Origin: a virus | Virus record (IMG/VR): IMGVR_UViG_3300005526_000008 | Coordinates: 1-64,000 of that record | Strand: one strand, 5' to 3' | Length of the DNA: 64,000 bases | Shown here: in pieces, positions 9,781 through 45,400 of the stretch | How the letters are laid out: every line of letters starts with the position of its first letter | Position numbering within the stretch: the stretch's first letter is position 1 | The notes under the pieces: generated by a model | Told to the model about the DNA's origin: nothing | The model's database searches: none | What the model saw: only the letters and a program-made list of their open reading frames with translations | Made by a program: the position numbers and the translations under genes

Positions 9781-11319
9781 CTAAAAAACGCCCTGCATGA
9801 AGAATACGAACCGGCTCGCCGTGCCGCCGGCAAGCGCGAACAGCGTGCCGGGAACGCCCGTCGCATAGACGCCGGGCGCCAGCACGACCGGTCCCTGGAA
9901 GGGCAATATCGAGCCGGCCATGCCGGTGGCGTAGACGCCGATCGGCCCGACGATCGTCGTCGGCAGCCCGGAAACCGTGGCCCATTCCTCGATCGCCGAC
10001 TGGGTCAGGATGTACTGGGTGTCGGCGGCGCCGGCCTGGGCCCATTGCTCGATCGCGATCTGGGCGACCGCGTAGCTGCTGTCCTCGGCCGCGGGGACTG
10101 CCCATTCCTCGATCGCCAGCGCGGTCATGTTGAAGGCGGTCGGCGCGTCGGAAACGATCGCCCATTGCTCGATGAAGGCTCGGTCGACCTGGACCTGCGG
10201 CGTGCCCTGCGCCCACTGATCCATGATCGCCTGGGTCAGCTTGGCCGAGACGATTTCGGGCGCCGGCGCGTAGCTGTCGGACGACCAGGCCGAGAAGCCG
10301 GTGGGTGGAGCGAAGTAAAACGAGCCGGCGGTGTCGTTCAGCGTGTAGATGCCGGTGCCGGGGGTGTTGTTGACATACGAGACCGAAAGCGCCATCGGCC
10401 ATTGCGTCGCCTGCACCGTGAGGCCCTGGCTTGGGATCGTCGGGCTGCCGGAGAATGTGTTGACCCCGTACCAGAGCCCGTTGTTGCGGTTCCACCAGAC
10501 GAAATTGTTGATGGCATCGTAGGCGATGCCCATGACGTCGCCGGACTGGAAGGTGAGGCCGGTGGCGATGTTGTCGAGGTGGTACCCGTTCTGGGCCAGC
10601 ATGTAGAGATAGATGCGTTGGTAGTAGTTGGTCTGGGTCGGGTTCCAGGCCACCACGGACAGCCCGACCGTGGCGTAGCCGCCCGGCGTGCCGTCGACCC
10701 TGATCTCGGCGTAGAACTTTCCGTCGCCGGTCTTGTGGGTGACGATGCTGCGGGCGCCGGGCGTGACGCCGGTGCCGGTGCCGAAGGTTATCCGGGTGTT
10801 GGAGACCGACCGCGTTATCGAGGCCGGATGGTCGGGCGCGAAGCCGAAGTTCGGCTGGCCGGTGCCGTCCAGTTCCATCGCGACCATCATCGCGTTGGAC
10901 TGCGCCGAACCGCCGACCAGCGGGTTGGCCGGGGTGGTGACGTTGCCGCCGCCGCTGACGTACCAGGATTCGGTGTTGTAGGCGGCGTCGATGGTGACGT
11001 TGAGGGTGTTGGCGCAGACGTAGCCGACATAGTAGGTGGTGCCGGCGGTCACGTTCAGGGTGGCGGCCAGTGGGAAGCGGTTGTAGTTGGCCGCGACCGA
11101 AGTGACCGTCGACCCGGTTGCCAGCAGTGCGCTGTGGTTGCCGTCGTAGATGACGGCCTTGAAGCTGATGCCGCTGACCGCGCCCGGCATGTCCATCAGG
11201 ACCGCCGTCACCGTGCCGCTGCACTGCGCCGTGATCTTGCTCAGGTAGGTCGAGTTGACGCCGGCGTTGCCGGTGGATCGGTAGGTCGTGTCGAGACCGA
11301 TGTAACCGCCGGTTGGCAT
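9781..11319 (-). CDS. Tail fibre protein with SPRY-like domain and five WA repeats
   Basis: The product has 512 aa in three parts. The N-terminal beta-rich region (about 1-150) contains the jelly-roll-like G-T-T-Y-Y-V-G-Y pattern. A middle region (about 193-290) reads G-D-G-K-F-Y-A-E-I, then T-V-G-L-S, G-Y-H-L-D-N-I and F-Q-S-G-D-V-M-G-I-A-Y-D, the order expected of a SPRY/concanavalin-like recognition domain. The C-terminal part (about 360-450) holds five copies of an I-E-[QE]-W-A motif at about 20-residue intervals. The last 60 residues are Gly/Val-rich (GVYATG twice). Likely adhesin; a receptor cannot be assigned. Confidence 0.7.
   Translation of the reverse strand: MPTGGYIGLDTTYRSTGNAGVNSTYLSKITAQCSGTVTAVLMDMPGAVSGISFKAVIYDGNHSALLATGSTVTSVAANYNRFPLAATLNVTAGTTYYVGYVCANTLNVTIDAAYNTESWYVSGGGNVTTPANPLVGGSAQSNAMMVAMELDGTGQPNFGFAPDHPASITRSVSNTRITFGTGTGVTPGARSIVTHKTGDGKFYAEIRVDGTPGGYATVGLSVVAWNPTQTNYYQRIYLYMLAQNGYHLDNIATGLTFQSGDVMGIAYDAINNFVWWNRNNGLWYGVNTFSGSPTIPSQGLTVQATQWPMALSVSYVNNTPGTGIYTLNDTAGSFYFAPPTGFSAWSSDSYAPAPEIVSAKLTQAIMDQWAQGTPQVQVDRAFIEQWAIVSDAPTAFNMTALAIEEWAVPAAEDSSYAVAQIAIEQWAQAGAADTQYILTQSAIEEWATVSGLPTTIVGPIGVYATGMAGSILPFQGPVVLAPGVYATGVPGTLFALAGGTASRFVFFMQGVF
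9975..10245 (-). repeat. Five 60-bp repeats coding for I-E-[QE]-W-A
   Basis: Five copies of an I-[EM]-[DEQ]-[QE]-W-A motif occur at 18-20 residue steps in the C-terminal part of the fibre gene at 9781-11319. They are protein-level repeats, with third-base variation between copies. Confidence 0.7.
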
Positions 11320-11324
11320 CTAGA

Positions 11325-12923
11325 TCATGCCACGACGATCGGGCCGATTTGCGCGCTGTCCAGGGCTGCGTTGGTCCAGGCGACGCCGGTGGTGGGATCG
11401 ACCGTGTCGGCGCGCCACGCCATGTTGTACTGGTCCCCGCCGGTCAGGGTGGCGATGGTCGGGGTCGACACCGTGGTGGCACCGATCTTGAGCCGCATCG
11501 CGGCGCTTTTCTGGCCCGGGCCGCTTTTCTGCATCTTTCCGCGGGTGACGACCCCGACGGTCGCGGTCGGTAACAGCGCATCGTGCAAGGTATAATACAT
11601 CATCGGATCGATCGGCGGCGTGAGGCCGTAGAAATCCGCGTGCCCGACGACGTCGTCATAGGTGTAGGTCGTCTGGTCGTCGATGCCGGTGTCGGTCATG
11701 TCGGCGACCACGGAGTAGTTGTGCGGGACTATGACCATGGCCTGCGACCCGGAGCCGGGCTCGCCGAGATACCCGGCGCTGGTTCCGCCGGAGGTCGGGA
11801 ATGCCGGGCCGTAGGTCGCCGGATTGACGAAGGTGTAGTTGTAGATGCCACCGTTGCCGTTGCCGACGATCGCCGCGTCCGACCAGATCGCAATGTAGAC
11901 ATTCTCGGCCGGGGTGTTCCTGCGCAGGCTGTAGCCGCCCGGGATCGGAAACGTGTTGATCCCCGAGCCGGGATTGACCAGTTCGCTCGTTTCAACCAGG
12001 AGCGTGACCGGGAGATATTGGCCGTATTGGTTTGTCGTGACCGAGTAGAGGGCCATGCGCGCCCGACCGGTGATGCCGGCGGCGAAATTGAACTGCAGGC
12101 CGGTCACCATCCCGCTGATCGGAACGGAGCAGACCATGCTGCGCACGACATGCGGCGACAGCGAGGCGGTATGGGAATGATCGGTGTCGGCCACCTTGGA
12201 CACGGTCGCGGGGAACTTGCTGAACTGGATGCTGGCATTGGTGTCGGGGCGGCGCTGAAAACAGCGGATATCGCCCGCCCATGGCACCGTCGTTCCGCTG
12301 CGCCAGACAAAGTCGTCGAGAAGGGGATTAAATGATCCAGGGGCGTAGCCGAGTTGCAGCCGGTTCGCGTAGTTGTGGGCGGTGCCCCCCGCGGTGTCGA
12401 GGCCGCCGAGGAAGAAATCGTTGGTGGTCTTGCCGTTCTTGCGTCCCGCGAACGAGCCGGCGGTGTTGTGGACGACCACCTCGAATTCGAACGACTCCCA
12501 GGTCTCGGGCCGTTTCATCGCCTTTGGCCAGGTTGCCAGCACGACGGTGTTGTCAAACTGTCCCTGGATCAGCGTGATGTCGCCGTTCGACATGAACATG
12601 ATGGTGCATTGCGGCGTGGCGCCGTCAGACAGTTGGAAATACATTCCTCCGTAATAAGTATCCGAGGGATGGGGGAACACCTTGACTGAATGCCGGTGGA
12701 CGCAGTTGATGTGGTGCACCGAATCGTCGGAACTGCTCTTCTTGACCAGCGTGGAGTTATAGTAGGTCGCCTTAATATCGAGCGAGTAGCCGCCCCAGCG
12801 GGCATAGCCGGAGATCAGGAAGAATGAAAAGCTTTCCGGATCCCAGTAGCCGTAGGTCGAATCCAGGTGCACCTCGTAGCCCTGAATGTAGGTGTCGAAG
12901 CCGTCGGCAAAAAACCAGGCCAT
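11325..12923 (-). CDS. Tail fibre protein, paralogue 1 of 3
   Basis: The 532-aa protein starts MAWFFADGFDTY. Its N-terminal 230 residues share an ordered set of motifs with the next two genes: D-S-V-H-H-I, W-E-S-F-E-F-E-V, N-Y-A-N-R-L-Q, then L-D-D-F-V-W-R-S-G-T-T-V-P-W. This layout suggests a lectin-like (concanavalin) fold. A variable middle region is followed by a conserved C-terminus (V-G-H-A-D-F-Y, V-T-R-G-K-M-Q-K-S, W-R-A-D, I-G-P-I-V-V). Conserved ends with a divergent centre indicate duplication followed by diversification. Adhesin or tail-spike role inferred from position and fold pattern. Confidence 0.75.
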   Translation of the reverse strand: MAWFFADGFDTYIQGYEVHLDSTYGYWDPESFSFFLISGYARWGGYSLDIKATYYNSTLVKKSSSDDSVHHINCVHRHSVKVFPHPSDTYYGGMYFQLSDGATPQCTIMFMSNGDITLIQGQFDNTVVLATWPKAMKRPETWESFEFEVVVHNTAGSFAGRKNGKTTNDFFLGGLDTAGGTAHNYANRLQLGYAPGSFNPLLDDFVWRSGTTVPWAGDIRCFQRRPDTNASIQFSKFPATVSKVADTDHSHTASLSPHVVRSMVCSVPISGMVTGLQFNFAAGITGRARMALYSVTTNQYGQYLPVTLLVETSELVNPGSGINTFPIPGGYSLRRNTPAENVYIAIWSDAAIVGNGNGGIYNYTFVNPATYGPAFPTSGGTSAGYLGEPGSGSQAMVIVPHNYSVVADMTDTGIDDQTTYTYDDVVGHADFYGLTPPIDPMMYYTLHDALLPTATVGVVTRGKMQKSGPGQKSAAMRLKIGATTVSTPTIATLTGGDQYNMAWRADTVDPTTGVAWTNAALDSAQIGPIVVA

Positions 12924-12933
12924 CGCGTCCTCG

Positions 12934-14520
12934 CTAACTGACTATGAGGGGGCCGAACAGCAGCGCGTCGACTTCCTGCCAGGTCCAGGCGGCGCCGGTG
13001 GCCGGGTTGGTGACGTCGGTGCGCCAGGTCCAGGTGTAGCCTTCTCTGTTGTTGCCGGCATTGTCGTAATTGTCGCCAGCCCCCAGGACGATGGTCGGGG
13101 TCTGTACCGTGGTGGTGCCGCTGATGAGTTGCATGCAGGCGGTTTTCGTTCCGGCGTCGGTCTTGCGCATGTAGCCGCGGGTGGTCACCCCGAGCACATT
13201 GGTTAGCGCTGAACCGATCTGGGCGGGGGGATACAGGTCGGCGGTGCCGGGCGCGCTGGCGATGACGTAGCCCCAGCCGGCGTCGGTGTTGGGATCGCCG
13301 AGGCACGAGGCGCTGTCGAGGACGATGGTGATGACGAAGTAGTTCACGCCGTCCGGTGACGGTGACAAGCCGCCCGGGGTTCCCGGGAAGCTGGTGAAGG
13401 GCGGGTCGGTGCCGATCCAGCCGACGAGAGTGGGATCTTCGGGATCGTCAAGGATACTGTAGAGACTGTAGAACGCCTCCCACGCCATGTCGGTGACGAT
13501 GCCGATCCAGACTTTCTGGCCGGTCACGACCACCACCGGGGGCGAAAAGATGAAGTCGGTCCATGGGCCTGGCGCGACTATTCCGTTAATCGGGATCGCG
13601 GCACCGAGGACCTCGCCGGGAGCTCCGTTATTGTCGGCGAACAGCGCCAGTTTGACAGTGCCTGGAAAGTCAGTGCCGATATAGCCCGGGGAGAAACTCA
13701 CCACCGTAACCGTCCCGCCGCCTTCCATGACCGCGTAGCTGTAATACGCAAGATTGGCCACCGCGTCGGCGTCGTAGCCGCCGCCGTTGGTATACTGGTC
13801 GGTCTCCCCGACCTTGGTGAACTGGGTGTTCTCGGAATAGGCCGGGAAGCGGGTGAAGCACCGTGCATCGCCGACCCATGGCACCGTCGTTCCGCTGCGC
13901 CACAGAAAGTCGTCGATGAGCGCGTCATACCACGAACTGTAGGCAAGGATCCCGAACGCGTTGGCGTAGCTGTTCGCGGTCGCGCGCGTGTTCATGCTGG
14001 TGCGGGTGAAGTTGTTCACCGCGCTGCCGTTGACGCGTACCGCGAAGCTGCCGAGCGTGGGATGGATGGTGATTTCGAACTCGAAGGACGTCCAGGTCTC
14101 GGGATAGATGAAGGCGTCGGGGAAGACCGCCAGGAGGGTGCCGCTCATGAAATCGCCGCGGAACAGTTGGACCGAGCCGTTGTTCATGATGCCGATACAG
14201 CATTGCGGGGTGAAGCCGTCGTAGAGCTGCAGATAGTAGGTGCCATCCGTTCCCTCCGGGTCCACCGCCTCATGCTGGAGGAAGGCGAGGTTCAGATGGT
14301 GCAGGGCGTCGTTCGAGTTGCTTGCCTTGTAGACGACGGGGATGTCGGACGGGCCGTAAGGAACGAAGAGGGCCCAGCCGCCGTGGCGGCCTTCCTCCGT
14401 CTGGAAATTGCCGGTGCTGGTGTAACTGGTGCCGCTGCCGGTGCCGGAGTCCCAGTATTCCATGAAGGGATCGAGGCTCCCGTCATAGGCGTCGAAGCCG
14501 TCGCCAAAAAACCATGCCAT
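12934..14520 (-). CDS. Tail fibre protein, paralogue 2 of 3
   Basis: This 528-aa paralogue starts MAWFFGDGFDAYDGS. It shares L-H-H-L-N-L, W-T-S-F-E-F-E-I, S-Y-A-N-A-F and L-I-D-D-F-L-W-R-S-G-T-T-V-P-W with its left neighbour. Its middle portion (about 255-430) differs and includes a V-W-I-G-I-V strand segment. The C-terminal T-R-G-Y-M-R-K-T-D and P-L-I-V-S close matches the family. A 28-base stretch at 13875-13902 is identical to 12278-12305 in paralogue 1, so at least part was duplicated or gene-converted recently. Confidence 0.75.
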   Translation of the reverse strand: MAWFFGDGFDAYDGSLDPFMEYWDSGTGSGTSYTSTGNFQTEEGRHGGWALFVPYGPSDIPVVYKASNSNDALHHLNLAFLQHEAVDPEGTDGTYYLQLYDGFTPQCCIGIMNNGSVQLFRGDFMSGTLLAVFPDAFIYPETWTSFEFEITIHPTLGSFAVRVNGSAVNNFTRTSMNTRATANSYANAFGILAYSSWYDALIDDFLWRSGTTVPWVGDARCFTRFPAYSENTQFTKVGETDQYTNGGGYDADAVANLAYYSYAVMEGGGTVTVVSFSPGYIGTDFPGTVKLALFADNNGAPGEVLGAAIPINGIVAPGPWTDFIFSPPVVVVTGQKVWIGIVTDMAWEAFYSLYSILDDPEDPTLVGWIGTDPPFTSFPGTPGGLSPSPDGVNYFVITIVLDSASCLGDPNTDAGWGYVIASAPGTADLYPPAQIGSALTNVLGVTTRGYMRKTDAGTKTACMQLISGTTTVQTPTIVLGAGDNYDNAGNNREGYTWTWRTDVTNPATGAAWTWQEVDALLFGPLIVS

Positions 14521-14526
14521 GTCCGG

Positions 14527-15987
14527 TTACACCACGATGGGGCCGAATTGCAGCGCGCTGACGTTGGTCGGCGTCCACGGCGCGCCGGTGTTGGGGTCGA
14601 GCACATCGGTGCGCCATGTCCATGCGAAATTGGTGCCCAGCGTCACTGTCGGGGTCTGGTAGGTCGTGGCGCCCGACTTGATCTGCACCGTGCCGCTGCG
14701 GAAGCCGGCATCGCTCTTCTGCACGTAGGCGCGGGTGGTCACCGCGACGACGCCGATCGGCGTGGTGCCCAGCGAGCCCAGCGCGTAGAGGTCGGCATGC
14801 CCGGAGACGCTGTCGTAGACATAGGTCGCGGTGGCGTCCTGGTGCGCCTCGCTGACCATTTCGGCGTTGACGGTGGTGTTGATGTTGACCGAGTTGCCGA
14901 CCTGATACTGCCCGGTGCTGGTGGAGGGACTGGCGACCGGGAAACTCGCGTAGGAGACCGTCGCCCCAGTACGACCGATGGTGGTGGTGTTGATGGACAC
15001 CGTCGCGGTCACGTCGTGCGAGATGCCGAACCAGTATTGCACCCCACGGGTTACCGAGACCGGGGTGCCGAAGGTGAAGGTGTTGTTGCCGCCGGCCGGG
15101 TTGACCACCGGAGTGGCGGATCCCAGCACCGCGCCGGGGTTGTTCCCGACATCGGTGAAGATCGCCATCTTGCAGTTGCCGGTGAAGCCGGTGCCGAAGC
15201 TTGCCAGGATGGTGGCGATCGAACCGGTGACGGTCGGCGTGAACGGGGTGTAGCGGGCGGTAGCCGTGACGTCGCTGGTCGTGGTGTTCGGCGTCAGGGT
15301 CTGCACCAGGATGCTGGGTGAGCGGCCGAACTGGGTGCTGACATCGGTCGTCGGCAGTCGCGTGTAACAGCGCAGATCCCCGACCCAGGCCACAGTCGAG
15401 GTGTCGCTGCGCCACAGCAGGTCGTCGATGTGCTGGTAGCCGACAAAGCCGGACATGCCGTATTGCAGCCGGTTGGCATAAGCGTTGGTCGATGGCTTGG
15501 TGTTGATGCCGGACTGGTTGAAGTCGTTGCTGGTGCTGCCATTCCTGCGGATCGAGAACGAGCCGGCCAACTGGCTGATGACGACCTCGAACTCGAACGC
15601 GTACCACGCGTTCAGCACGGTGACCGCGGTGGTCCAGATCGCGAGCTGGGCGCCGGCGGGCGTCCCCGACGTCAGCACGATGGCGCCGTCGGAGCGGAAG
15701 ACGATGCAGACTTGCCCGTTGGAGGCGTCCAGCAGTTGCAGATAAGTCCCCATCGTGGTGCCGCTGAGCGTCGCGGTTTGCTGGAACGCGCAAACGATGT
15801 GGTGCACGCTGTCGTTGGCGCCGCTGTTCTTGACCATCGGCGAGCCGACGTTGCGCATCGCCTGGCTGCCGGTGAACCGGCCCGTCACCAGCGAGAGCGC
15901 GCTGGCGGTGCCGCTGTCCCAGAACCCCACGAGGGCGTCCGCGGGAACCGCGTAGAGATCGAAGCCGTCGCCGAAGCACCATGCCAT
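14527..15987 (-). CDS. Tail fibre protein, paralogue 3 of 3
   Basis: The 486-aa product starts MAWCFGDGFDLYAV. It has the paralogue core D-S-V-H-H-I-V, W-Y-A-F-E-F-E-V-V, A-Y-A-N-R-L-Q-Y and H-I-D-D-L-L-W-R-S, with C-terminal T-R-A-Y-V-Q-K-S-D-A-G and F-G-P-I-V-V. The middle part (about 235-370) is a beta-sandwich-like region with F-G-T-G-F-T-G-N-C-K-M-A-I-F. It is promoter-proximal among the three copies, with a ribosome-binding site AAGGACAGCAACC. Probable trimeric fibre component, as for the other copies. Confidence 0.75.
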   Translation of the reverse strand: MAWCFGDGFDLYAVPADALVGFWDSGTASALSLVTGRFTGSQAMRNVGSPMVKNSGANDSVHHIVCAFQQTATLSGTTMGTYLQLLDASNGQVCIVFRSDGAIVLTSGTPAGAQLAIWTTAVTVLNAWYAFEFEVVISQLAGSFSIRRNGSTSNDFNQSGINTKPSTNAYANRLQYGMSGFVGYQHIDDLLWRSDTSTVAWVGDLRCYTRLPTTDVSTQFGRSPSILVQTLTPNTTTSDVTATARYTPFTPTVTGSIATILASFGTGFTGNCKMAIFTDVGNNPGAVLGSATPVVNPAGGNNTFTFGTPVSVTRGVQYWFGISHDVTATVSINTTTIGRTGATVSYASFPVASPSTSTGQYQVGNSVNINTTVNAEMVSEAHQDATATYVYDSVSGHADLYALGSLGTTPIGVVAVTTRAYVQKSDAGFRSGTVQIKSGATTYQTPTVTLGTNFAWTWRTDVLDPNTGAPWTPTNVSALQFGPIVV

Positions 15988-16002
15988 GGTTGCTGTCCTT
16001 CT

Positions 16003-17142
16003 TTAGGCGATCTTCTGGATGCCGTAGGTGATGTGGCTTGGACCGATCGCGAAATAGGAGATGATGTCGTAGGTGTTGGCCGGCGTGCTGAGCGTGCCGG
16101 CCGCACCCCCGAGCGGGAACCAGTTCGAGGCGAAGGTCAGGGTGCGGCTGCCGGTGCCGTCCTGGCGCACCACGATGTTGCCGTTGTCGCCGGCCAGGCA
16201 GTTGCTCGGATTACCCATCGTGCGGTTGCCGGCCAGCACCACCGAGAACTGGTTGCCGAGGTTGAAGTCCACGACGATGGTCGCGGCGTCGGTCAGCGTC
16301 ACCGGCGGCGTATGCTGGCGCGCGGTCCAGGTGTTGACCGCGGTCAGCACCGCGGCGCCGCTGTCGCCGGTGCGCGAGAAGGCGAAGCCCAGCACCGTGC
16401 CCAGGGCGAACGGACTGGCGCTCGAGGAGCCGATCGGCGTGACGCTCAGTTCGCGATAGCCCGTCTGCGCGACCAGCGCGGTCATGTTGAACATGATCCA
16501 CGCCGCGGTGTTGGCGGTGTCGAACAGCCGGATCTGCCCATCGATGACACTCGAGGAACCGCCAAGCGTGTCGAGCACCGAGGACCAGTCGGTGCCGTTG
16601 TAGTCGAGCACGTCGAGGTAGATCGCGGTGCTGCCGTTCTGGGTGCCGTTGTTGAGCCGCAGCTTGCCGGGGCCGGGATCGGCGTTGGAGAGCCCGGTGT
16701 CGAAGCTGTACATGATGCTGATCGCGCCGCCGACCGGCCCGGCCCCGCCGGCGCCGTAGGAGGTGACGCTGAGCCCGTCGCTCTGCAGCATCGCCGTGCT
16801 CAGCGAGGGGATGTTGACGATGGCTCCGGTGGCGCCGCCGACCGAGAGGGTGAAGGCGCTCGACTGGTTCGACACCAGGAACACCCGGTAGGCCGGCAGC
16901 CCGCCGGTCGGCGTCACCAGCGGGATGGTCAGCTTGCACGCCGAGGGCAGGCCGGTGCACTTGAACACCTGGTTGCGCGAGTACTGGCTGAAAGAGAGCG
17001 TGGTGTTACCCGCCGCCATGTTGACGCTGATCTGCGAGTTGAAGGCGGCCTCGAGCTTGACCACCGCGTCGTTGATCGCGGGGACCTTATCAATCTGAGT
17101 CGGGGCGACCTGGTTGATCTCGAGAATGGGCGAAACGGGCAT
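16003..17142 (-). CDS. Tail fibre / tip-proximal structural protein (379 aa)
   Basis: This mid-sized beta-rich protein starts MPVSPILEINQVAPTQIDKVPAINDAV. That N-terminal helix with D-A-V-V-K-L-E-A-A-F is typical of fibre proteins docking on a baseplate hub. The remaining sequence has low charge, is rich in Thr/Ser/Gly, and includes W-T-A-R-Q (about residue 275) followed by a C-terminal domain with G-N-R-T-M-G-N-P-S-N-C. The T-L-T-G-N-R pattern is a common tail-fibre C-terminal motif. It lies directly downstream of the hub gene. Confident as a structural protein, uncertain in exact role. Confidence 0.7.
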   Translation of the reverse strand: MPVSPILEINQVAPTQIDKVPAINDAVVKLEAAFNSQISVNMAAGNTTLSFSQYSRNQVFKCTGLPSACKLTIPLVTPTGGLPAYRVFLVSNQSSAFTLSVGGATGAIVNIPSLSTAMLQSDGLSVTSYGAGGAGPVGGAISIMYSFDTGLSNADPGPGKLRLNNGTQNGSTAIYLDVLDYNGTDWSSVLDTLGGSSSVIDGQIRLFDTANTAAWIMFNMTALVAQTGYRELSVTPIGSSSASPFALGTVLGFAFSRTGDSGAAVLTAVNTWTARQHTPPVTLTDAATIVVDFNLGNQFSVVLAGNRTMGNPSNCLAGDNGNIVVRQDGTGSRTLTFASNWFPLGGAAGTLSTPANTYDIISYFAIGPSHITYGIQKIA

Positions 17143-17152
17143 GGCGTGTTCC

Positions 17153-20100
17153 TCAGTAAGCAGGCAGTTCGGCGTAGCCCTGGAAGCCCATCCCGACCAC
17201 GGATGAGACCTGGTAGACCGCGAGGTAGAGCGTCGACGTCGCCTGGTAGAAGCTGTCGGTGGTCATCTGCCCCGACGTGTAGACGAAGGTCGCCGCGGTC
17301 AGGCCCATGTAGGACCGCGTGTATGACAGCGGATTGGCCGGGTTGAACACCAGGATCGCGCCCGGGCCGGGCAGGATGTAGGCGTTGTAGAGCTCGGCGG
17401 CTTCGAACAACGGCGCGGTGTCGGTGCCGTCGATCAGCGGGCTGCCCATCCGGGTGCGCCGGGTCCAGTAGATATTCAGCCCGGTCCCGTCGACGGCGCC
17501 GCGGCGCATCCAGACCGGGGCGTAAGGCATCAGGTCGAAACCGCGATAGGTGAAGGCGCTGATCGGGGCCTGGTCGAGGAAGCGGCCGCTGGGCACCAGC
17601 TTCCACAACTCCTGGACGTTGATTTCCGCCAGCGACAGTGTGTTGCCGCCGATCTTGCCGGCCTGCAGCATGATGAAGCGTTCGCCGGCGGTGTGGGTGT
17701 TGGTGGCCCACTCGGTGCCGCGGCGGCCGCGCAGCAATTCGGACAGCGTGTACGAACCGTCGTTGTTGAGGGTCACGGTCTGGTACTGGATGATCTCCGC
17801 GCCCAGCAGCGCCGCGTTGGTCCCCTGCAGCATCTGGTCATAGGTGCAGCTCAGCGGGAATGTACTGCTGCCGTTCAGGATGATGGTGACGGTGTTGAGG
17901 TAGTCGGTGGAGAACTTCGCCGCGGTGTCGCCGAGCGCGTCGAGCGTGGTGGCCCAGTTCACGGAGAAGGGGATGTTGATGTAGTCGTTCCAGGTCGCGG
18001 AATTGTCGGTCGAGCGGAATATCTCGCCGGTGATCCAACTGCCCGCGGTGCTGCCGACGGCGTAGTAGATCCGCGTTGAGACCCCGCCGGTGTCGTCGCT
18101 GTCCTGCAGCAGCGGCACGTTGAACTGCAGGAAATCGGCGAACGGCGCCTGGGCGACGGTCTGCGGCAGGCTGCCGTAGGTGGCGCCCTTGATCGTCGAC
18201 GGCAGTTCGTAGGTGGTGTTGTCCTCGAAGGCGGCGTTGATGTGGATCGACAGGTCGGCGCCGATGTGCTGCTCCTCGATGCGCACCTCGTAGATGTCGC
18301 CGCTGTCCATGTTGACGGTGACGTTGTCGGCCGGATCGAGCCAAAGATATTTCCACGGCAGCACCGTCTGCACCGTGTCGCGCTCGGCCCACATCGTCCA
18401 CAGCCACTTGGTGGCAATCTGGGTGGCCTCGAGATTGTTGGTGATTATCGGCAGGTCGATGGTCATGCGGCGTTTCGACCACACCGTCGGCACCGGCGCC
18501 TCGGTGCGCTTGGCGTAGGTGGCGCCGGTCTGAAAATCCAGATCGACGTCCTGGAACCGCAGCGACAGGATCATCGGCAGTTCCTGCTGCTGGGCTTCCT
18601 TGACTCGCCAGAACTGCGACGGGTCGTTTTCGTCGAGGCTGACCAGGTCGCGCTGCGGAATGGTGACCATCGAGGGCTGGCCGCGCGGGATGAATTTGAG
18701 CGTGTAGTCGCTCTCGATCATATCGATCTGGTAGACGTGGCAGAGGTCCGCGATTGCCGCGCCGGCCGATTTCAGTTCCTGGATGCAATAGCCTCGCGTC
18801 GTCTGGGTGACCAGGTTGAGGTCCAGCATCTCGTCGGTCATGCCGACCCGGTGGCAGATGTCGCGGATGATGGTGGCGACCGGCACGGCGTTCCTGTCGT
18901 CCACCCGGAACATGTAGGCGACCACGAGCTCGCCCGCGCCGGCGGCGGCGAAGCCTCCCACGTTCGAGGCGACGTAGGCGACGTAATTGCCGTAGGAGTT
19001 GGAATTGACCCCGGCGGCGGAGTTCGCCCAGTGGATGTTGTTGTAGGCTTCTTCGGTGCGGACCGGGCTTTCGGTGACCCGGCCGGTCGCCATGTCGATG
19101 TCGATGAACAGGTGGTCGCCGTCGAAGAAGATCTGAAACAGGCCGCCGCCGGTGAGCGGGATGTAGCCCAGCGTGGTGTCGGCGTAGCGGTTGGTCCAGC
19201 CCAGCCCGGCGCCGCGGCCGGTCCAGCCGACGCCCGTCAGGGATGACCATTTTATGTAATTCTGGCCGCCGGCATCGATGATGATGCTGTCATCGGTGGC
19301 GTAATAGAATGTCCGCCAACTCATGCTGACGCTGGTGATCAGCGGTTCGCCCCAGTCCGCGAGGTTGATGGTGCCGGTCAGCTTGAAGTTGCCCGAGGAG
19401 CCCTGCACCGACGGGTCCTGGCCGGCGATGATGTCGGTGTACAGCAACACTCGGTAGAGCGGGTCGACACTCCCCCCGTAGCCGTTGAGGATCCAGAGCT
19501 GGCGGGTACCGGAGATCTGGTCGTCGTTGCCCAACTGGAACTCGTGGTATCCGTTCGGATACTCGACCGGATACGGGTTGCTGATGAGCATTCCCAGCGG
19601 GTCGATCAGGAACACGCCGGGTCCGCTGAGCACGCCCACGATCATGTCGGACACGCCGGCGGTCGAGTTGCCCTGGCCGTAAACGGCGATGCCGTTGCAG
19701 GTGTAGTAGCGGTCGGGCGCGGTGCGCGGCACCATGAGGGTGTAGGCGCCGCTGAACGTCATCGGTCCCGGCTGGATGGTGATCAGGGCGCTGTGCACGC
19801 CGTTATGGCCGGCGACATAGACCATTCCGGACGGGCCGCCGGCAATCCAGTCCGCCTCGAATTGCGGGCCGAGGGCGGTTGGCAGCAGGCCGCCCTCGAA
19901 GAAGATCCGGTCGTAGTCGGCCGACAACACCTCGGACATCGTGTAGATGCTGTAGGTTATCACCCCCCAATTAACGTAGGAGAACAGGTTGTCGTAGACG
20001 CTGCGGGGGTAGTAGAGGCAGAACACCATGCCGCGATCCCAGTCGACCGCGGTGCGGTAGTTGCTCCACCATTTCGTGGTGTGACGCGCGAGGATCTTCC

Positions 20101-20752
20101 AGGCGGTGTAGCTCTCGGCCGTGGTCGAGACAATGACCGTCGATTGCGGCATGCGGTTGCCGAAATGCGACATATCGGCCTCGTCGTAGAGCATGTAGGC
20201 AAGGCCGCGATAGGCCGGGCACGAGGCGCCCGGAATGACGTTCTCCTGCACCCATTTCACCATTTTCGGGTCGGGGAGTTGGGCCTCGTCGCCGGGGTAG
20301 GTGCGGATGGTGAAACGGTACTTGCACTGGTCCTCGGGGAACAGCGCGGTCCAGTCCATGAATAGCTTGCCATCGAGATAGAGCTTCTTGAACGTCACCG
20401 GCCCTTCGCAAACCGCCAGTGCCACGCTCTGGTTGTAGTTGTAGGCGATCGTGCCGAAGGCCTTGCCGACGGTATGCTCGTGGGTGGAGATCGGGCCCTG
20501 CCAGATCATGTTGACCGGCAGCCGCATCGTTCCCCACACGATGGGGATCGGCTTGCCGTAGCTCGAGTTCATGATCTGGACGTCGGGGACCAGCGGCTTG
20601 GCCTTGGCGCGGCCGAAGATCAGCGAGCCGATGATGCCGCCGGCCAGGGAGCCGATCATGGAACCGAACGGCCCGCCCACCATGCCGCCGATATAGCCGC
20701 CGGCCATGCTCAGAGCTGACGTGCCGACCTGGGCTCCCATCTGCGAGCCCAT
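17153..20752 (-). CDS. Tail hub / host-specificity protein (GTA gp15-like)
   Basis: The 1199-aa central tail-tip protein starts with a Gly-zipper hydrophobic region (about 14-50: G-G-Y-I-G-G-M-V-G-G and repeats), followed by D-V-Q-I-M-N-S-S-Y-G-K-P-I-P-I-V-W-G, a signature of GTA-like tail-tip proteins. Residues about 630-700 carry V-G-M-T-D-E-M-L-D and I-A-D-L-C-H-V-Y-Q-I-D, part of the putative phage tail protein 3 (PF13550-type) region, consistent with the hub of tip-attachment proteins. The C-terminus contains L-L-R-G-R-R-G-T-E-W-A, typical of these hubs. It follows NlpC/P60, DUF2163 and DUF2460 genes, the conserved order of the GTA tail module. Expected to bridge tail tube and fibres. 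Confidence 0.85.
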   Translation of the reverse strand: MGSQMGAQVGTSALSMAGGYIGGMVGGPFGSMIGSLAGGIIGSLIFGRAKAKPLVPDVQIMNSSYGKPIPIVWGTMRLPVNMIWQGPISTHEHTVGKAFGTIAYNYNQSVALAVCEGPVTFKKLYLDGKLFMDWTALFPEDQCKYRFTIRTYPGDEAQLPDPKMVKWVQENVIPGASCPAYRGLAYMLYDEADMSHFGNRMPQSTVIVSTTAESYTAWKILARHTTKWWSNYRTAVDWDRGMVFCLYYPRSVYDNLFSYVNWGVITYSIYTMSEVLSADYDRIFFEGGLLPTALGPQFEADWIAGGPSGMVYVAGHNGVHSALITIQPGPMTFSGAYTLMVPRTAPDRYYTCNGIAVYGQGNSTAGVSDMIVGVLSGPGVFLIDPLGMLISNPYPVEYPNGYHEFQLGNDDQISGTRQLWILNGYGGSVDPLYRVLLYTDIIAGQDPSVQGSSGNFKLTGTINLADWGEPLITSVSMSWRTFYYATDDSIIIDAGGQNYIKWSSLTGVGWTGRGAGLGWTNRYADTTLGYIPLTGGGLFQIFFDGDHLFIDIDMATGRVTESPVRTEEAYNNIHWANSAAGVNSNSYGNYVAYVASNVGGFAAAGAGELVVAYMFRVDDRNAVPVATIIRDICHRVGMTDEMLDLNLVTQTTRGYCIQELKSAGAAIADLCHVYQIDMIESDYTLKFIPRGQPSMVTIPQRDLVSLDENDPSQFWRVKEAQQQELPMILSLRFQDVDLDFQTGATYAKRTEAPVPTVWSKRRMTIDLPIITNNLEATQIATKWLWTMWAERDTVQTVLPWKYLWLDPADNVTVNMDSGDIYEVRIEEQHIGADLSIHINAAFEDNTTYELPSTIKGATYGSLPQTVAQAPFADFLQFNVPLLQDSDDTGGVSTRIYYAVGSTAGSWITGEIFRSTDNSATWNDYINIPFSVNWATTLDALGDTAAKFSTDYLNTVTIILNGSSTFPLSCTYDQMLQGTNAALLGAEIIQYQTVTLNNDGSYTLSELLRGRRGTEWATNTHTAGERFIMLQAGKIGGNTLSLAEINVQELWKLVPSGRFLDQAPISAFTYRGFDLMPYAPVWMRRGAVDGTGLNIYWTRRTRMGSPLIDGTDTAPLFEAAELYNAYILPGPGAILVFNPANPLSYTRSYMGLTAATFVYTSGQMTTDSFYQATSTLYLAVYQVSSVVGMGFQGYAELPAY

Positions 20753-35937: not shown

Positions 35938-37542
35938 TTACGGCACCAACGGCACCCCGCCGCCCTGGTGCACCCGGCCGATCAGGAACTTCGCGGCGCT
36001 GCCGCCCTCCGGATCCGCGTTCTGCAACTGCTCCAACTTCTCCATGTCGTTCTCTTGCGTGTGCGTTCCCGGCACGCTGTCCTCGGCCTTGCTCACCGGC
36101 ACCGCCTTCTGCATCCCCGGCGAACGCACCGACTGGCTGGCGATCTGGTCGTACCGCGTCTTCAACAGGCTGAGCGCGTCACCCTTCTCGTTGAGCGCCT
36201 TGCTCAGTTGCGGCACCGCCTTGCGCAACTCGCCCAGTTCCTCCAACGCCTCGGCCATCGTCATCTGGCCCATGCCCGGGATCTGGATCTCGGCCTCGCC
36301 CTGCAGGATCTTCTGCAACGGCTGGTCGAGGATCGGCTCGCCGCGCTGCAGGCCCACATTGCGCGGATCGCCGCCCTGGCCGCCGGCCATGTCCGGCTGC
36401 TGCGGTTGCTGCCCGCCACCCATCGCCTGCTGCAGCGATCCCGAGATCACCACGATGATGCTGGCCAACCGGGTGATGGTGTCGATCGGGTTCTGCGGCG
36501 TGTCGTCGGAGATGTCAGCCGGGCCGCCGGCACCGCCCGGCCCGCCTTGCGCCGCCATGGCGCCCTGACCCTGCGCACCCTGTTCGTCGCCGCCGTCATC
36601 GGGTTCGTCGCCCTCGTCGTCGCCGCTGTCATTCTGGTCACTGCTCTGGCCGCGCTGGGCACCGAAGGGCGAGCCGCCGCCGTTGGCCTTCTTCTTCGGC
36701 GGGAACTCCTTCTCCAACGGCTCGAACACCAGCGGATATTGCTCCGCGACTTCCTCCGGGATCGAATCCGGATCGCTCCCCAGCAAGGCGTCGGCGATGC
36801 CGCGCGCGTCCTCGATCATGCTCGAGCCCAGCCCGGCGATCTCGGTCATCAGGTCCAGCGGGTCGGTGAGATACGCCGCCAGATCTTCGGGGAGATCAGT
36901 CTTCAGCAGCATCTCATCGCCGAACTGGCTTTCGATCTTGATCAACTCGCCGGCCTGCTCCGCCCGCTCCATGTCCTCCTCGTCGTCGGGGATCCGGGCG
37001 GTGTCGTTGGCGAGTTGCTTGAGCAGCACGATGCCATGGCCCATGAAGCGGTCGAGAGCGGCGGCCGTCGAGGCCACGACGGGCTCGTTGTCGTCGGCAT
37101 AGATCGGCGTGCCGGCCTTAATCGCCTGGACGCTCACTTCCATCTTCATCAGCGCGTTGGCGAACGCCGAGACGTGGTTCAGTCCCTTGGCCAACGGCTC
37201 CGGGTCCGGCCCATACTCGGCCTCGAGTTGTTCCCCAAGCGCGTTGCCGAACTCGGTGAAGCTCTTGGTCAGCAGGTCGTTGGTGTCCGGCGATGCCGAC
37301 GCGACTATTCCGGCGACACTGTCGTAAAGCGTGTCGACGAGCCCTGAAACATCTTTACGCATGGTGCGCTCCTTTCTGTGCGGCGGTGTTACCCAGGAAG
37401 TGTCGAGCAGCGGGACTGGCCGTTTGCGGCGCTGGCGTGGCCGCAAATCGGTGTTCGTCAGCCCTCCGAAAGCGTTGGTGCCCTGGGTGAAACCACCTCC
37501 GCCGCCTCCCGTCGAAGTCCCTCCGCCACCTGCCCCGCTCAT
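35938..37542 (-). CDS. Scaffold-like head protein (534 aa), possible dual start
   Basis: The product is acidic, helical and low in aromatic residues. The central portion has Glu/Asp-rich helices (D-D-E-E-D-M-E-R-A-E-Q-A-G-E-L). A Pro/Gly/Gln/Asp linker occupies residues about 280-340, and the C-terminus has a coiled-coil-like E-L-R-K-A-V-P-Q-L-S-K-A-L. It lies just upstream of the capsid gene, which fits a scaffolding protein. ATG at 37542 overlaps the preceding stop (ATGA) and adds a Gly-rich 60-residue leader. ATG at 37362 has AAAGGAG six bases upstream and would give 474 aa. Either or both may be used. Scaffold role inferred, not proven. Confidence 0.65.
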   Translation of the reverse strand: MSGAGGGGTSTGGGGGGFTQGTNAFGGLTNTDLRPRQRRKRPVPLLDTSWVTPPHRKERTMRKDVSGLVDTLYDSVAGIVASASPDTNDLLTKSFTEFGNALGEQLEAEYGPDPEPLAKGLNHVSAFANALMKMEVSVQAIKAGTPIYADDNEPVVASTAAALDRFMGHGIVLLKQLANDTARIPDDEEDMERAEQAGELIKIESQFGDEMLLKTDLPEDLAAYLTDPLDLMTEIAGLGSSMIEDARGIADALLGSDPDSIPEEVAEQYPLVFEPLEKEFPPKKKANGGGSPFGAQRGQSSDQNDSGDDEGDEPDDGGDEQGAQGQGAMAAQGGPGGAGGPADISDDTPQNPIDTITRLASIIVVISGSLQQAMGGGQQPQQPDMAGGQGGDPRNVGLQRGEPILDQPLQKILQGEAEIQIPGMGQMTMAEALEELGELRKAVPQLSKALNEKGDALSLLKTRYDQIASQSVRSPGMQKAVPVSKAEDSVPGTHTQENDMEKLEQLQNADPEGGSAAKFLIGRVHQGGGVPLVP

Positions 37543-40500
37543 GCGGGGGCGCCCTTGTGGCGGAAATGCTTGATCGCGTGCTCCGGCACGTGTTCGCCGT
37601 AGCGACTCAGATGCCGGTAGAGAATTCCCACGCCTTCATCGGTGAGCGCCCCGACCAGCGCCGATCCCAGGATCGTCCCGGCGGGTCCCAGGAACGACCC
37701 GGCCGTCCCACCCAGCGCCCGCCCGGCTGCCCCGGCGATCACCCGTCCGACCGCAGGCCCGGCATATTCGTTGAAGGCGATCTGCGCTCCGCCGCCGGCG
37801 AGGTTGCGCACGATGCCCTCGGCTGCCGGCGCCTCGTGGTGCGGGCTGCGGTCGCCCATCGCGTGGCCCAGCGCCTGGCCGCCCTTCAGGCCACCGATCG
37901 AGCCGGCGAAGCCGCCCATCGTCTGCAGCCCGAACTTGGTGGCGTTCGAAACCATGCCGCCCGCCGGCATCATGTGCGAAGCGAGGTTGCCGACCACGTC
38001 CCACCCCGCCTGGCTCAGCCCGTAGGTGCCGACCTGCCCGAGCATGTGCGATGCGCCGAAATCGGCGCCGCCAAACCTCCCGCCATGGCCGGCAGGCGCC
38101 TGGGTTGGCGCCATCCCGGGGCTTTCCGGCGGCCGCCGCATGGCGAAGTCACCAACCGATTGCGGCCCGGGCGAGTCCGGGGTGGGCATGTGCTGCCGCG
38201 CCCCGCTGATCGCGCCCACCTGTGGCGGGGCGTTGTGGCCCGCAGCACGGAACTGACCGATATGGCCGCGCGGATGGCGCTGCTCGTCGAACCGGTCGGC
38301 CATGCCGAAGAGCTTGTAGAGATCGCCCAGCGGCGCCGCCTTGCCGAGCGTGTTGAGCCGGAAGAACACCTGCTCACGCACATGCTGCATGCCGGCGACG
38401 TGCTGCTCGTTGTCGTCGGCGCTGTTGTTCCGGGCGACGGCGCCCTCGCGGCCCTTCTGGTAGAGGGTATCGAGCAAATCGGTGAACGCACCCTGATCGT
38501 CGAGGCCCTTGCGCTGGCGCGCCTCGGTGATCTTGTCGTTGTTCAGCATCTCGGTCTTGAAGCTCTCGATCGACTTCTGGTTCTCCAATCCGCTCGCGCT
38601 CACCGTGGGCACCGAGGTTCGCTTGGTGATGTTCAGATAGCCGTCCTGCAACGCCTTGTTCAGGCTGCTCTTCTGGTTCTGGTCGAGGCCAGCGAGGTTG
38701 GCGACGAACGACAGCGCCCGATGCATCTGGGTGTATTCTTCGGGGTTCAACGGCATGGCGCCGGCCATCTTGAGCTGCCGCAGCAGGGCTCCGCCGACCG
38801 CCGCGGGATCGTGCGGGATATCGTGCCAGACCTTCTGATTGCCGAAGATGCCGCGGTTTCTCTTGTCGAAATCGCTGCCCAGCAGCAGTTGCTTGCGGGT
38901 GTCCCGGTCGAAGAGTTCGGTCCGGCCGCCCTCGAACAGATCACGCAGCGAGGCGTAGAACCGGTCGTGCTTGTCGCTTGAGAAGTGCTGGTTGCCGATA
39001 TGCTGCAATCCGTTGATGTGCTTCTCGACGAACCACTTGCGGACCGACTCCTCTTCCTTCTTGCCCTGCGGCTCGCCCATCTTGCGTTGGGCATAGGTGA
39101 AGCTGGTCGGGCCAACTTCGTTGATGTGACCCGCCGCAATCCCGTCCGCGATCGCCTTGTCGACCTCCGCGCCGTTGTTCACCTGAGCCTTGTTCGGCCG
39201 GTTGCCGCCATGGCCCCCACCACCCTGCTGGTCCCCGCCACGCAAGAAGTTACTGACGCTGTTGACCTCGGAGCCGTATCCGATGTTCTGGTACTCGCCT
39301 TCCTTGTTCTTGACGTGGATGGCATGCAGGAACTTTTCCTTGCCATCCTTGTCCTTGAACTTGACGCCGAAGACCGCCTCGTCCGGCCGTTTCAGGCCGC
39401 CCGGCAGCTCGAAATGCGCCTGGACATTACGCCACCGCCACTTCTTCGGGTTGAGCTCGACCTTCTTCTTGCCCGGCCCGGCCTGCAAATCGATGATGCC
39501 TATCGCGGCCATCGGCCCGACCACGCCGACCACGTATTTCCAGTTCTGCCGCAGCCACTTGCCGGCATCGCTGTTCCAGAAATCGGCCGCCCCCTTGGCC
39601 ATCTTCTTAATCGTATCGAAAGCCTTCTTCGGGTCGCGGTGGGCGTGGACGCCGTCGTATAACTGCTTCATCTGGCCTTTGAGTTGACCCCGATAGGCCG
39701 CGGTGAGTTCGTTGTAGTCGGCCCAGCCCTGCGCCATCTTGTCGGAGAATTCCGGCGTTTTGCGCTTGATCCACTCCGCGAAGACGTTGTTCGCCGGGAT
39801 CCGCGCCTGGATCGCGGCCTCCTCGGCCAGGGCCAGTTCCTCGAGATGCTGCTTGGCCGCGATGACGTGCCGTTCCAACCCCTGGTTGAAAGCCTTGTTC
39901 GCTTCGTCGGCGATCCCCGCCTTGATCTCGTCGTAGCCCGCGGCCGTGCCGACCCCAGGCAGACGCGGCTCAAAGAAGCCCGTTATCGCCGGCTTGCCCT
40001 TTCTTGCCTTGCGCGTCTTGATAAACGGGTTGCGGATGAGCCGCTGTTCTTCCTGGGTCAGGTCCTCCTTCTCGGACGCCCGCGCCACCTCGGCGGCATC
40101 CTCGAGTTGCGGAATTTCGTCCTTGATCTGGGTGATGCGGGAGTCGACCTCATGCTCCCATCGCGGGATCCGCTCCTGCAGTTCCGCGACGATGCCTTCC
40201 TTGGTCTTGGCTTCCAGCTTGTGGCCGATGCTGGTTGCGACCGCCCGCAACTGCTCGACCGACGGTGACGGCTTGGTCAGCAGGACGTGGTTCCAATCCG
40301 CCCGCACCGAACCGAGTTTGGCGATAAGCTGGCCTTGCTCGTGCTTGAGGCCGATGGCGGCGGTCCCATGCTCTTTGACCTGCGCTCTGCGGCCGGCATA
40401 GACCGCCTCGATCTCGTCGCGCGCCCGCTGGCGCATTTCTAAAGCGCCGTTCCAGATCCTGCGTTGGTCGACGGTGAGCGGGTCGTGATGTATGGCCTCG

Positions 40501-42488: not shown

Positions 42489-45400
42489 GTCGCCCGTATC
42501 GCTTTGCGCTTACGGGCGCGCGTCTCGGCGGCGAGCTCTTCGTTCGAGGAGCCGATCGTGCCCCCGGAAACCGTGTGGGCCAGGGCGTTGGTGTAGCCGC
42601 GCCACTTCTGCAAATCGGACAATAAATCGAGCGCTTCATATAGCTCGTCAAAATGTACGATTTCTCCGGACGGGGCGCTCTTGCCCATAGCGGCGCGCTC
42701 ATGCGCGTCGAGTTCGGCAAGCTTTGCTCCCATGGTCGGATGGCGCCGGGCTTCCGACAACGGCATGTTCAGACTGGTGTCCTTCTTGCCGTGCAGCCGG
42801 ACCCAGTCGTCCACCTCGTCGGGGTGCATCAGGTAGATCTTCTTGGTCGGCTTGCCGAACCGGGTGAAATGATCGGTGCCGATGCCATCCGGGTTGTGCA
42901 CCAGGTGACCGGAGTGCTCGGTCGAGGTGCCCGGGATCTTCATGACGATCGCCGCGTCCTTGTCGACGTGCGGCCGCATCTTGTCGTGCGCGGCATGAGC
43001 GTCCGCGACGTTGTGCCAGAAATGCTCGGCATGCTCCCGCGCCCGAGCGACCTTGGCATCGCGGCCGAGGATCGCCTTGCCGGCCCAGTCCTCGACCGCC
43101 TTGTGATGGCCCTCCATGTCGACGTGGCCCATTTCCTTCTTCCATCGCGCCTTGGCCGCGGCGACCCGCTGGGCGTGCTCGGCTGACGAGAGTTGGCCGA
43201 TGGCCTTGCGGGTCGTGCGCGAGGCGTAAGCGCTCTGGGCGGAATGCATCAGCGATTTCGCGCCGGCCCCCGCCACGCCAACGACGTCCTTGCCAACCAT
43301 ACCGCCAAGCTTGCTACCGACCCGGCTTGCCGCCTGCGTGGCGGTCATGCCGACATACGGCACGCGTCCTCTGGGCCAGAGGCGTTCGGCCATCCGCACG
43401 GCCGCGCCCGTGCCAAGATGGGAGCCGACCATGCTGGCCCCCCCGACCAGCGGTCCCTTGAACTGCGCTTCGGCGAGCTGCCCGGCGATGCCGGTGCCGC
43501 CCCGCTCCGCCCGGATGTAGCTCTTGCTCTTCTGCCGATCCTGGAATTTGGCCCGATCGCCACGACCAAGGGTCTTGTCGTTGAAGATGGTGACGTCGTT
43601 CTTGACCAGCCGGTCAGCCAGCATCGCCACCAACAGGCCGTCATCGCTCTTGCCCATGCGTCGCGCCTGATTGAGCGCGATAGCGATAGCCTGCTTGCGA
43701 TCGGTGACCTTGGGCATCTTCCGCTTGGGCAGGTTGGAGCGGAACGACTTCAGTTTGCCATGCTTGAACTCGTGCATGGTCTCGTGGATTTTCTCCTGCT
43801 CCGCCGCGCTGGCCTTCTTGGCCAGTTCGCCATACGGGTTCTCGCCCTTGAAGATGTTGCTGAGCAGGCCGCCCGAGGGGCCGTATTGCTGCTCGGGCAT
43901 GCCCGGCATCGTCACCTGCTTGGGATCGTTGTTGTCTTTGGGCATCGACCAGAACGGCTTCGGCCCCCACTGGTCGGCGCGCGCCTGCTTCCATTGGCTG
44001 ACCGTGTTGTCGTCCTGCAGCAGGATGTTCTTGCGCAGCCGGCCGATCAGTTCAGCCTTCATGGCTTCGGGGTCGGCGTAGGACGGACGTTTCGGCTTGC
44101 CCAGCATGTAGCCGCCAACGAGAGCGGCCCCGACGGATGTCTTGGGGAGCTTGCGGATGGTTCCGACCACCGCCTTGCCGGGTAGGCTGCCGACAGCTTT
44201 CGCGCCGGCTTTGATGCCTTGGCCGATCGCTCCGATCATGCCTTTCTCGAGATTGCCACGACGTTCCTGCTTGTCCGACATTTCTGACCGGCCGCGGCGC
44301 TGCCCTAGGGCATATCCTGCCGCCCCGGTCGCCAGGACAGCCGTGGCGGCGCGAGGATGCGCGGCAATCGTTTGCCCAAATTTGCCTGCGGTTTTAATGG
44401 TCTGCGCGCCTATCGGGCTGTTGATCGCTTTCATCGCCCCGCGCCGCGCCATGCCGCTCGCCTTGTTGCCGGCCGCCGCGACCGACTGTCCGGCCGGGCT
44501 CGCCATGGCGGAACTGGCCATGCCGGTGGCCTTCTGCCTGAACGACGTCGCGGCCCCGCTGGCTTTCTGCCCCAACGACGTCGCGGCTCCTTTAACCGAA
44601 CGTCCGGCCTGGCCCAGGCTACCGATGACTTTGCGCCCGGTCGGGCTTTCGATGGCGTTGAGCGCGCCGCGCATGATCGACCCGCCGATCCCCTTGTCGA
44701 GATCACCGCGACGCTCCTGCTTCTCGGCATTGCGGCGCCGCGACATGGCGGCGATGCCCAGGCCGGTCGCGGCCGCGCCGCCGGCTGCGAGACCATGGCC
44801 GACGTTACGACCAACGGTTCGTCCGGTGCCCATCGCGCGCCACATGCGTTGGGCTGCTTCGTGGTCGCTTGCTCCGCGGGCCTTGGCGGCAGTGAACATT
44901 CTGCTGCCAACACGCTGTCCTACTTTCGCGCCAATGCTTTCGCCCACGCGTCCTGGCTTGCGCAACGCCGCCATCGCGCCCTGCGCAAGCTTCGCTCCGA
45001 ACGCCTTGTCGAGATCGCCGCGCCGTTCCTGCTTTTTGGCCTTGCCGTCGCGGTTTTCGATCTTGCGGCCGATATGGATGCCAAGTCCGCCGCCACTGAT
45101 CATGCCGCCAACGCCGCCAGTCCCCGCGCCGGTAAAGATCGGCGCGCCGGTAAGGTCATAATGACTGGCAGTACCGCTAAGCATGCGCCGATGGAGGCCG
45201 TGAGCCGCCAACCGCGCTCCGCCCTTTGCGCCGAGGTGGCCTCCCAGCATTGCGCCGCCGACGCCCAACGCAAGCGGCACGATGAACTTGTTCATCTTGC
45301 CGGTCGGGGCCGACTTCTTGGCGTCGAACTGCATCCGCTCGCCCGGCGCGCGTGGCCGGCCGAAACGCTGGGTCAGCTTCTTGTCGATATGCTTGACGGT

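Follow-up and report, generated by a model that had tools for sequence, protein, structure and literature searches.

We analysed positions 1 to 64,000 (here the window) of the IMG/VR virus record IMGVR_UViG_3300005526_000008, which is 75,329 bases long and may be incomplete. Three tandem open reading frames (ORFs) on the minus strand fill positions 11325-15987 exactly, with gaps of 6 and 10 nucleotides (nt) between them. In order, these are gene A (14527..15987, 486 aa), gene B (12934..14520, 528 aa) and gene C (11325..12923, 532 aa). The ribosome-binding stretch directly upstream, read by eye, is plausible for A and C and weak for B. An earlier note on this DNA had described three tandem paralogous tail fibre genes with conserved ends and variable centres. 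End-to-end alignment agrees with this description. Across the full alignment, C shares 36% identity with each of the other two, and pairwise protein identity is 41-44% and 42-52% for the two ends (the N and Ct domains) but 21-29% for the centre (the M domain), or 18-29% for M in larger alignments. 'Tail fibre' is a fair working name, although 'tail-tip lectin-like adhesin' is a better fit to the domains.

Hidden Markov models (HMMs) made from non-window sequences only found N, M and Ct, in that order, in all three minus-strand genes. In A, the domains occupy 15337..15987 (N), 14833..15333 (M) and 14533..14826 (Ct). The corresponding positions are 13837..14520, 13279..13824 and 12946..13269 in B, and 12231..12923, 11694..12227 and 11334..11669 in C. 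The M model, derived from 114 non-window M domains, matched A at 4e-55, B at 8e-21, C at 9e-23 and the start of the following gene, D, at 1e-10. None of 80 shuffled controls appeared in the hit list of the same search. Judged by these profile matches, the centres of A, B and C are one homologous, very divergent domain.

We compared predicted models of A and C with known folds. The AlphaFold2 models had a mean predicted local distance difference test score of 89.1 (A) and 84.5 (C). Foldseek rows came without residue ranges, and fold matches were assigned to domains from the VIA rows. Among these rows no match fell to Ct by itself, which carries no weight as evidence. The N domain of A (residues 1-198) matched residues 115-311 of 8zdo_a (Z 15.4, root mean square deviation (rmsd) 3.3, 180 residues aligned), and also pro-concanavalin A (Z 13.1) and ERGIC-53 (Z 13.5). 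For C, the N domain likewise matched 8zdo_a (Z 14.8, rmsd 3.4, 184 aligned), and C also matched the receptor-binding domain of TM4 gp23 (9n6a; Z 13.1, rmsd 3.2, 174 aligned). The N domain of A, and likewise that of C, is therefore predicted to have a concanavalin A-like lectin/glucanase fold.

The top structural match of M was 9jwb_Z for both A (Z 18.7, rmsd 2.0, 147 aligned) and C (Z 18.1, rmsd 2.2, 152 aligned). The two M domains are only 20-23% identical despite this common best match. Both also matched the Bxb1 tail tip (Z 13.9 and 14.0), and M of A matched the Cwp84 lectin-like domain (4ci7; Z 14.0, rmsd 2.4, 137 aligned). The family DUF4082 (PF13313) matched 65 of 111 M domains at E<=0.01, with a best value of 2.8e-8. 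Gene A scored 16.5 bits over its full length and 20.4 bits with M alone, below the gathering score of 28.4, and full-length B and C had no match to PF13313 at 0.1. Hence, M is related to DUF4082 by fold and partly by sequence, and we do not file it as a member. Of 54 aligned family members, 8 matched the choice-of-anchor R model NF041539 (NCBIfam) at 0.001, the strongest at 3.7e-11; C gave no match. A, B or C may bind sugars.

Exchange of centres between related phages

Relatives were collected in three scans of viral contigs. Together with three named phages, one cellular locus and the window these gave 183 sequences, and merging contigs with common DNA left 100 DNA-distinct clusters, window included (handles such as L024 denote members of this set). 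Domains covering under 75-80% of their profile were excluded from counts. The family is common in metagenome viruses, with 181 matching stretches in one scan. N-bearing genes numbered one in 77 clusters, two in 19 and three in 4; these counts refer to the stretch of DNA available for each cluster and, as many sequences are fragments, copies are undercounted. The window and L064 have their three copies side by side; L114 and L129 each have one of their three set apart from the others. Ten N-Ct genes lack M. Bases 9781-15987 had no DNA match among 50,697 phage records. A first scan of cellular genomes gave no family match. A second gave one locus only, L122 (Caldovatus sediminis NZ_BMKS01000004.1), possibly a prophage. 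Alphaproteobacterial hosts are suggested because the named relatives infect Brevundimonas, Sphingomonas and Mesorhizobium.

Between contigs, the median identity was 54.5% for N, 55.7% for Ct and 32.1% for M. In 14 between-contig pairs N was at least 75% identical. In 10 of these, M was below 55% or missing from one partner. Examples (N/M/Ct identity) are L107/L073 (96/34/87%), L081/L126 (95/33/90%), L120/L084 (84/40/85%), L089/L036 (79/40/82%) and L112/L010 (75/32/77%); one partner is without M in L047/L064, L026/L045 and L052/L041. The remaining four pairs are L024/L027 (twice), L118/L183 and L163/L082. In the swap pairs, nucleotide identity falls and then recovers at or near the domain borders. 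For L107/L073 it stays mostly at 97-100% up to residue 180 of N, drops to 50% in M and returns to 97% where Ct starts. Approximately unbiased (AU) tests, run with 47 M domains selected by hand and on pairs other than L081/L126 and the three M-lacking ones, rejected the two M domains as a clade for five of six pairs (p<=0.00122).

The opposite pattern, a conserved centre between diverged ends, is seen too. The pair L163/L082 has a single exact block of at least 60 nt, which is 547 nt long, spans codons 221-403 and covers M. Nucleotide identity is 73% in N (90-97% over roughly the final 30 codons) and 69% in Ct. Contig L126 is a mosaic, with an N like that of L081 (92% nt) and an M like that of L100 (99% nt). 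The assembled sequences thus record replacement, loss and transfer of M as one block among related phages, and the breaks coincide with, or fall close to, its borders with N and Ct.

The close relatives L121 and L116 differ sharply across two fibre genes between flanks that are about 95% identical. In the first copy their break comes close to where N meets M, and a stretch of the second copy of L121 matches the first copy of L116 at 86%.

Age of the tandem copies and the B-C tract

Among multi-copy genes, a copy from the same contig was the nearest relative just once for N (of 44 cases), once for M (of 45) and never for Ct (of 44). These counts run counter to recent tandem duplication as a general origin, which was rejected. 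Median M identity was 30.4% for co-resident copies and 32.1% between contigs. Copies compared by position between L024 and L027 were 95/94/98% and 85/74/86% identical (N/M/Ct); the two copies inside L024 were 53/27/46% identical (this within-contig figure derives from an earlier 87-cluster set). In a 48-row M tree, A clustered with L025 and the first copy of each of L007 and L018 (98), and C with the last copy of each of those two contigs (99). Strict positional orthology of M was not adopted: clustering was weak in a larger tree, with 11 changes against 14.6 when shuffled, and 19 of 500 shuffles were as low (for 'first'). B and C were joined at 88 in the N tree. The program warned of long branches and we do not accept them as sister genes. 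By these comparisons A, B and C are old paralogues.

The earlier note had reported that bases 12278-12305 (in C) and 13875-13902 (in B) are identical over 28 nt, and took this as a sign of recent exchange between copies. The identity is confirmed. Both minus-strand tracts encode the WRSGTTVPW motif near the end of N. In relatives the motif usually has ten residues, and among the rows listed the nine-residue form occurs only in B and C; this comparison was read by eye, many rows having been missed by the script's pattern. A run of 28 nt was reached by 4 of 2000 codon-resampled B-C pairs in one test and by 0 of 500 in another. It was also reached by none of 272 between-contig pairs within 3 points of the B-C protein identity, and by none of 204 pairs of B or C with other contigs, for which the maximum was 22. 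The B-C run exceeds chance. The longest exact runs with A are far shorter (14 nt for A-B, 12 nt for A-C).

We extended the exact-run test to 105 full-length genes, excluding those that lack M or whose Ct is split and taking just the longest run of each pair. Four of 23 within-contig pairs had a run of at least 28 nt: L121 (44), L116 (36), L113 (32) and B-C (28). Two of the 23 pairs join an adjacent copy with the non-adjacent L114 copy. Identity-matched between-contig pairs reached 28 nt in 2 of 959 (L121), 5 of 1306 (L116), 4 of 2194 (L113) and 0 of 272 (B-C) cases. Every one of the four runs lies in N or Ct and none in M. They may represent three events, since L121 and L116 are near relatives, with flanks about 95% identical. 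The 28-nt match fits a short within-genome exchange. The reading of recent exchange in the earlier note therefore holds for a tract of about 28 nt between B and C; it does not extend to the whole genes, or to A.

Surrounding genes and further modules

The minus-strand order is hub/tip protein, 379-aa protein, A, B, C, D, two smaller ORFs and a GH25 endolysin. The hub/tip protein (17153..20752, 1199 aa), of the Rcc01698-like, gene-transfer-agent type by Pfam and PHROGs, has Phage-tail_3 and Rcc01698_C domains (Pfam). The 379-aa protein (16003..17142) is encoded immediately upstream of A. A one-sequence phmmer search found homologues in 7 of 99 other clusters, 24 of the 99 having less than 2.5 kb of upstream DNA. 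All seven homologues end at, or slightly overlap, the first fibre ORF. In L017 and L113, two fibre copies are accompanied by strong homologues of the hub gene, the 379-aa gene and F. The three fibre genes of the window thus belong to the tail-tip module, directly after the Rcc01698-like hub/tip gene and the 379-aa gene and upstream of the GH25 endolysin gene.

Gene D (9781-11319, minus strand) follows C and has an M-type domain at its start (10876..11289, residues 14-115, found with the HMM described above). A SPRY-like stretch may come after this domain (0.084, a weak match below the cut-off). Because M is common to D and the fibre genes, counts of D homologues were disregarded. Ct inserts of about 150-180 residues are present in five relatives (L036, L017, L107, L112 and L032). 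The insert at L036:11474-11926 is a SPRY domain (3.5e-8) and that at L017:12870-13401 a weaker SPRY match under the cut-off; those of L107 and L112 have no Pfam match. SPRY in Ct is a further module. M and SPRY-like modules may therefore recur in D, a fourth adhesin-like gene.

Elsewhere in the window, between the head and tail modules, 35938-47197 holds three large genes (534, 1649 and 1570 aa). The 534- and 1649-aa genes had no match at 0.001 in a scan of PHROGs, and DUF6496 was the sole match of the 1570-aa gene in a scan of Pfam.

Interpretation and comparison with known systems

Taken together, the data are best explained if A, B and C are old paralogous three-domain tail-tip adhesins whose M domains are traded between phages and set the glycan that is gripped; we consider this account probable. 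A, B and C would be modular lectin-like adhesins of the tail tip, their genes lying downstream of the hub gene. The conservation pattern and the M swaps suggest a division of roles, with N and Ct probably for attachment and assembly and M for ligand choice. M would then determine which surface glycan is gripped. During co-infection, homologous recombination in conserved border segments would renew M. A phage may display several lectin-like adhesins with different M domains, and with two or three copies several specificities would be open to a single particle or lineage. Over long times, whole-gene gain or loss would change the copy number.

A bolder proposal, which we put forward tentatively, is that M is a domain-sized travelling cassette that moves among the tail-tip proteins of many phages by way of fixed border segments. 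These segments might lie around GDIRCYTRMPASD at the end of N and around YVYDS at the start of Ct, a placement that is equally tentative. M also occurs in other proteins such as D, and phages would on this view draw on a common pool of glycan specificities. Tandem copies would let one phage carry several M specificities together.

The earlier note had considered a cassette for switching receptor specificity among the copies, or a hetero-trimer. Programmed switching would make the tandem a reservoir, with recombination or inversion bringing one centre or another into the copy that is expressed, all within one lineage. Conserved ends with variable centres would suit it, as would the B-C identity, the long exact runs within contigs and a slightly raised within-genome identity that is most marked for N. 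However, the long runs (the longest for each pair) avoid M altogether, co-resident M domains are about as distant as those on different contigs, and L024 and L027 keep the positional identity of their copies. A- and C-type M domains are also first and last in two other contigs, though position clustering is weak overall. Furthermore, A, B and C are all intact, run in one direction and lie close together, so that no silent copy is apparent. Recombinase-driven fibre switching of the Gin/Min type would call for a serine or tyrosine recombinase together with invertible or direct repeats. In the 75,329-base record, possibly incomplete, there was no match at E 0.1 to the reverse transcriptase family PF00078 (template repeats were not sought) or to the recombinase families PF00239 and PF00589. 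A diversity-generating retroelement and recombinase switching were provisionally set aside on this lack of a reverse transcriptase, integrase or resolvase match. The interval 10000-17000 has 35 inverted repeats, the longest 25 of which are imperfect and 16-32 nt long. Programmed switching among A, B and C is not supported and we regard it as very improbable. The cassette idea of the earlier note holds up between phages (10 of the 14 pairs and the 547-nt block), but not among A, B and C, where nearest relatives are almost always on other contigs. Signals of recombination, on which that idea depended, are present and are strongest between phages, domain by domain; the structural likeness of the middles that it also presupposed is seen for A and C in their common best match.

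If A, B and C were instead tandem duplicates that arose in their own lineage and drifted, with the centre evolving faster, the uniform N-M-Ct architecture, the tight spacing and the low conservation of M relative to N and Ct would be accounted for. Nevertheless, other contigs almost always hold the nearest relatives, the break at M is abrupt in some close relatives (L107/L073), and M trees reject five of the six pairings examined. Drift also cannot yield a 547-nt identical centre between ends that are 69-73% identical. Plain duplication and drift is accordingly unlikely. The hetero-oligomer would place the three paralogues in one mixed fibre, the centres differing for mutual fit. Co-directional, closely spaced genes agree with this, and the conserved ends could be a common interface. 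Yet most clusters (77 of 100, an undercount of copies given the many fragments) have a single copy, an indication that the protein can function by itself. A mixed fibre is hence a rather improbable explanation.

Several observations weigh against trade of M between phages by old paralogous adhesins. Because the window phage is without a near relative, the M swaps are documented in other contigs and not in A, B or C. Its relatives are metagenome contigs, and chimeric assembly could also form at conserved borders. The 75% and 55% thresholds, and the six AU pairs, were picked after the identities were known. The M domains of L121/L116 (90/52/81%) pair in the tree (support 80), with no discordance; this pair reflects either rapid divergence or the substitution of a closely related type. 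L012 and L129 each have both their copies inside the C-type M clade. Co-resident copies are sometimes alike, with M identities of 63% for copies 1 and 3 of L064 and 53% for the two of L017 (both from the 87-cluster set). Within-genome N identity was 54.3 against 51.0 when shuffled (9 of 5000 shuffles as high), and M and Ct were slightly raised (169 and 232 of 5000 as high). With respect to function, the best M match, 9jwb_Z, carries a cyanophage capsid title, and a lectin-like fold is no proof of sugar binding. In a passage of their report, the Cwp84 authors allow that the lectin-like domain may serve another role (PMC4089489). Finally, the central fibre of mycobacteriophage Douge (gp20) matches parts of N and M at an rmsd of 77, so N and M are arranged unlike that fibre.

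Trade of M between phages, as favoured here, would provide a domain-resolved example of phages renewing probable host-binding proteins, best seen in the 547-nt identical centre between ends of 69-73% identity. As a common family, it offers a set of natural variants through which glycan specificity could be related to a single exchangeable domain.

The closest named relatives of A, by tblastn, are in the Brevundimonas phages Leszy (USN15043.1, 4e-9) and Delta (DELTA_31, 1e-9) and in Sphingomonas phage Lucius ('putative tail fiber', QJD54463.1, 7e-4). Like A, these proteins match the N HMM (9e-40 to 2e-41) and the Ct HMM (8e-22 to 2e-32), values that are inflated as the training sets contained these records. 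In Leszy and Delta the gene follows the tail-tip genes and precedes a second Ct-bearing gene. Unlike A, the three proteins have no significant M domain and are annotated hypothetical or 'putative', and the second gene of Leszy and Delta has no recognisable N.

At the level of fold, the N domains of A and C resemble residues 115-311 of 8zdo_a. We infer that this structure is Douge BppU (gp23) and that these residues are its carbohydrate-binding module, because the 311-residue length and the residue range agree. Passages of the Douge report describe binding of mycobacterial host glycans by the BppU module (residues 116-311) and by other Douge domains (PMC13033339). Sequence identity is about 10%. 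DUF4082 and the Cwp84 lectin-like domain are like M in fold and only weakly so in sequence. According to passages of a further paper, a Cwp84-like domain occurs in the phage baseplate proteins Vp4 Gp120 and Deep-Blue Gp176, homologues of A511 Gp106 (PMC11406892). At 1,174 and 1,169 aa, these are longer than A, B and C.

Among the matches listed, judged by title and opening lines, literature searches on the N-M-Ct family, on tandem or exchanging fibre modules and on DUF4082 returned no paper on the family; DUF4082 together with phage returned 0 papers. Domain shuffling in phage receptor-binding proteins is established, including recent exchange of single domains in tail proteins (Smug et al., 2023; PMC10684548), and passages of that paper do not name the N-M-Ct family. 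In comparison with the cases in those passages, an internal cassette is exchanged here between two conserved ends. Domain shuffling and Cwp84-like phage domains are hence known; what appears new, judged by the papers listed, is a tandem N-M-Ct family with an exchangeable centre.

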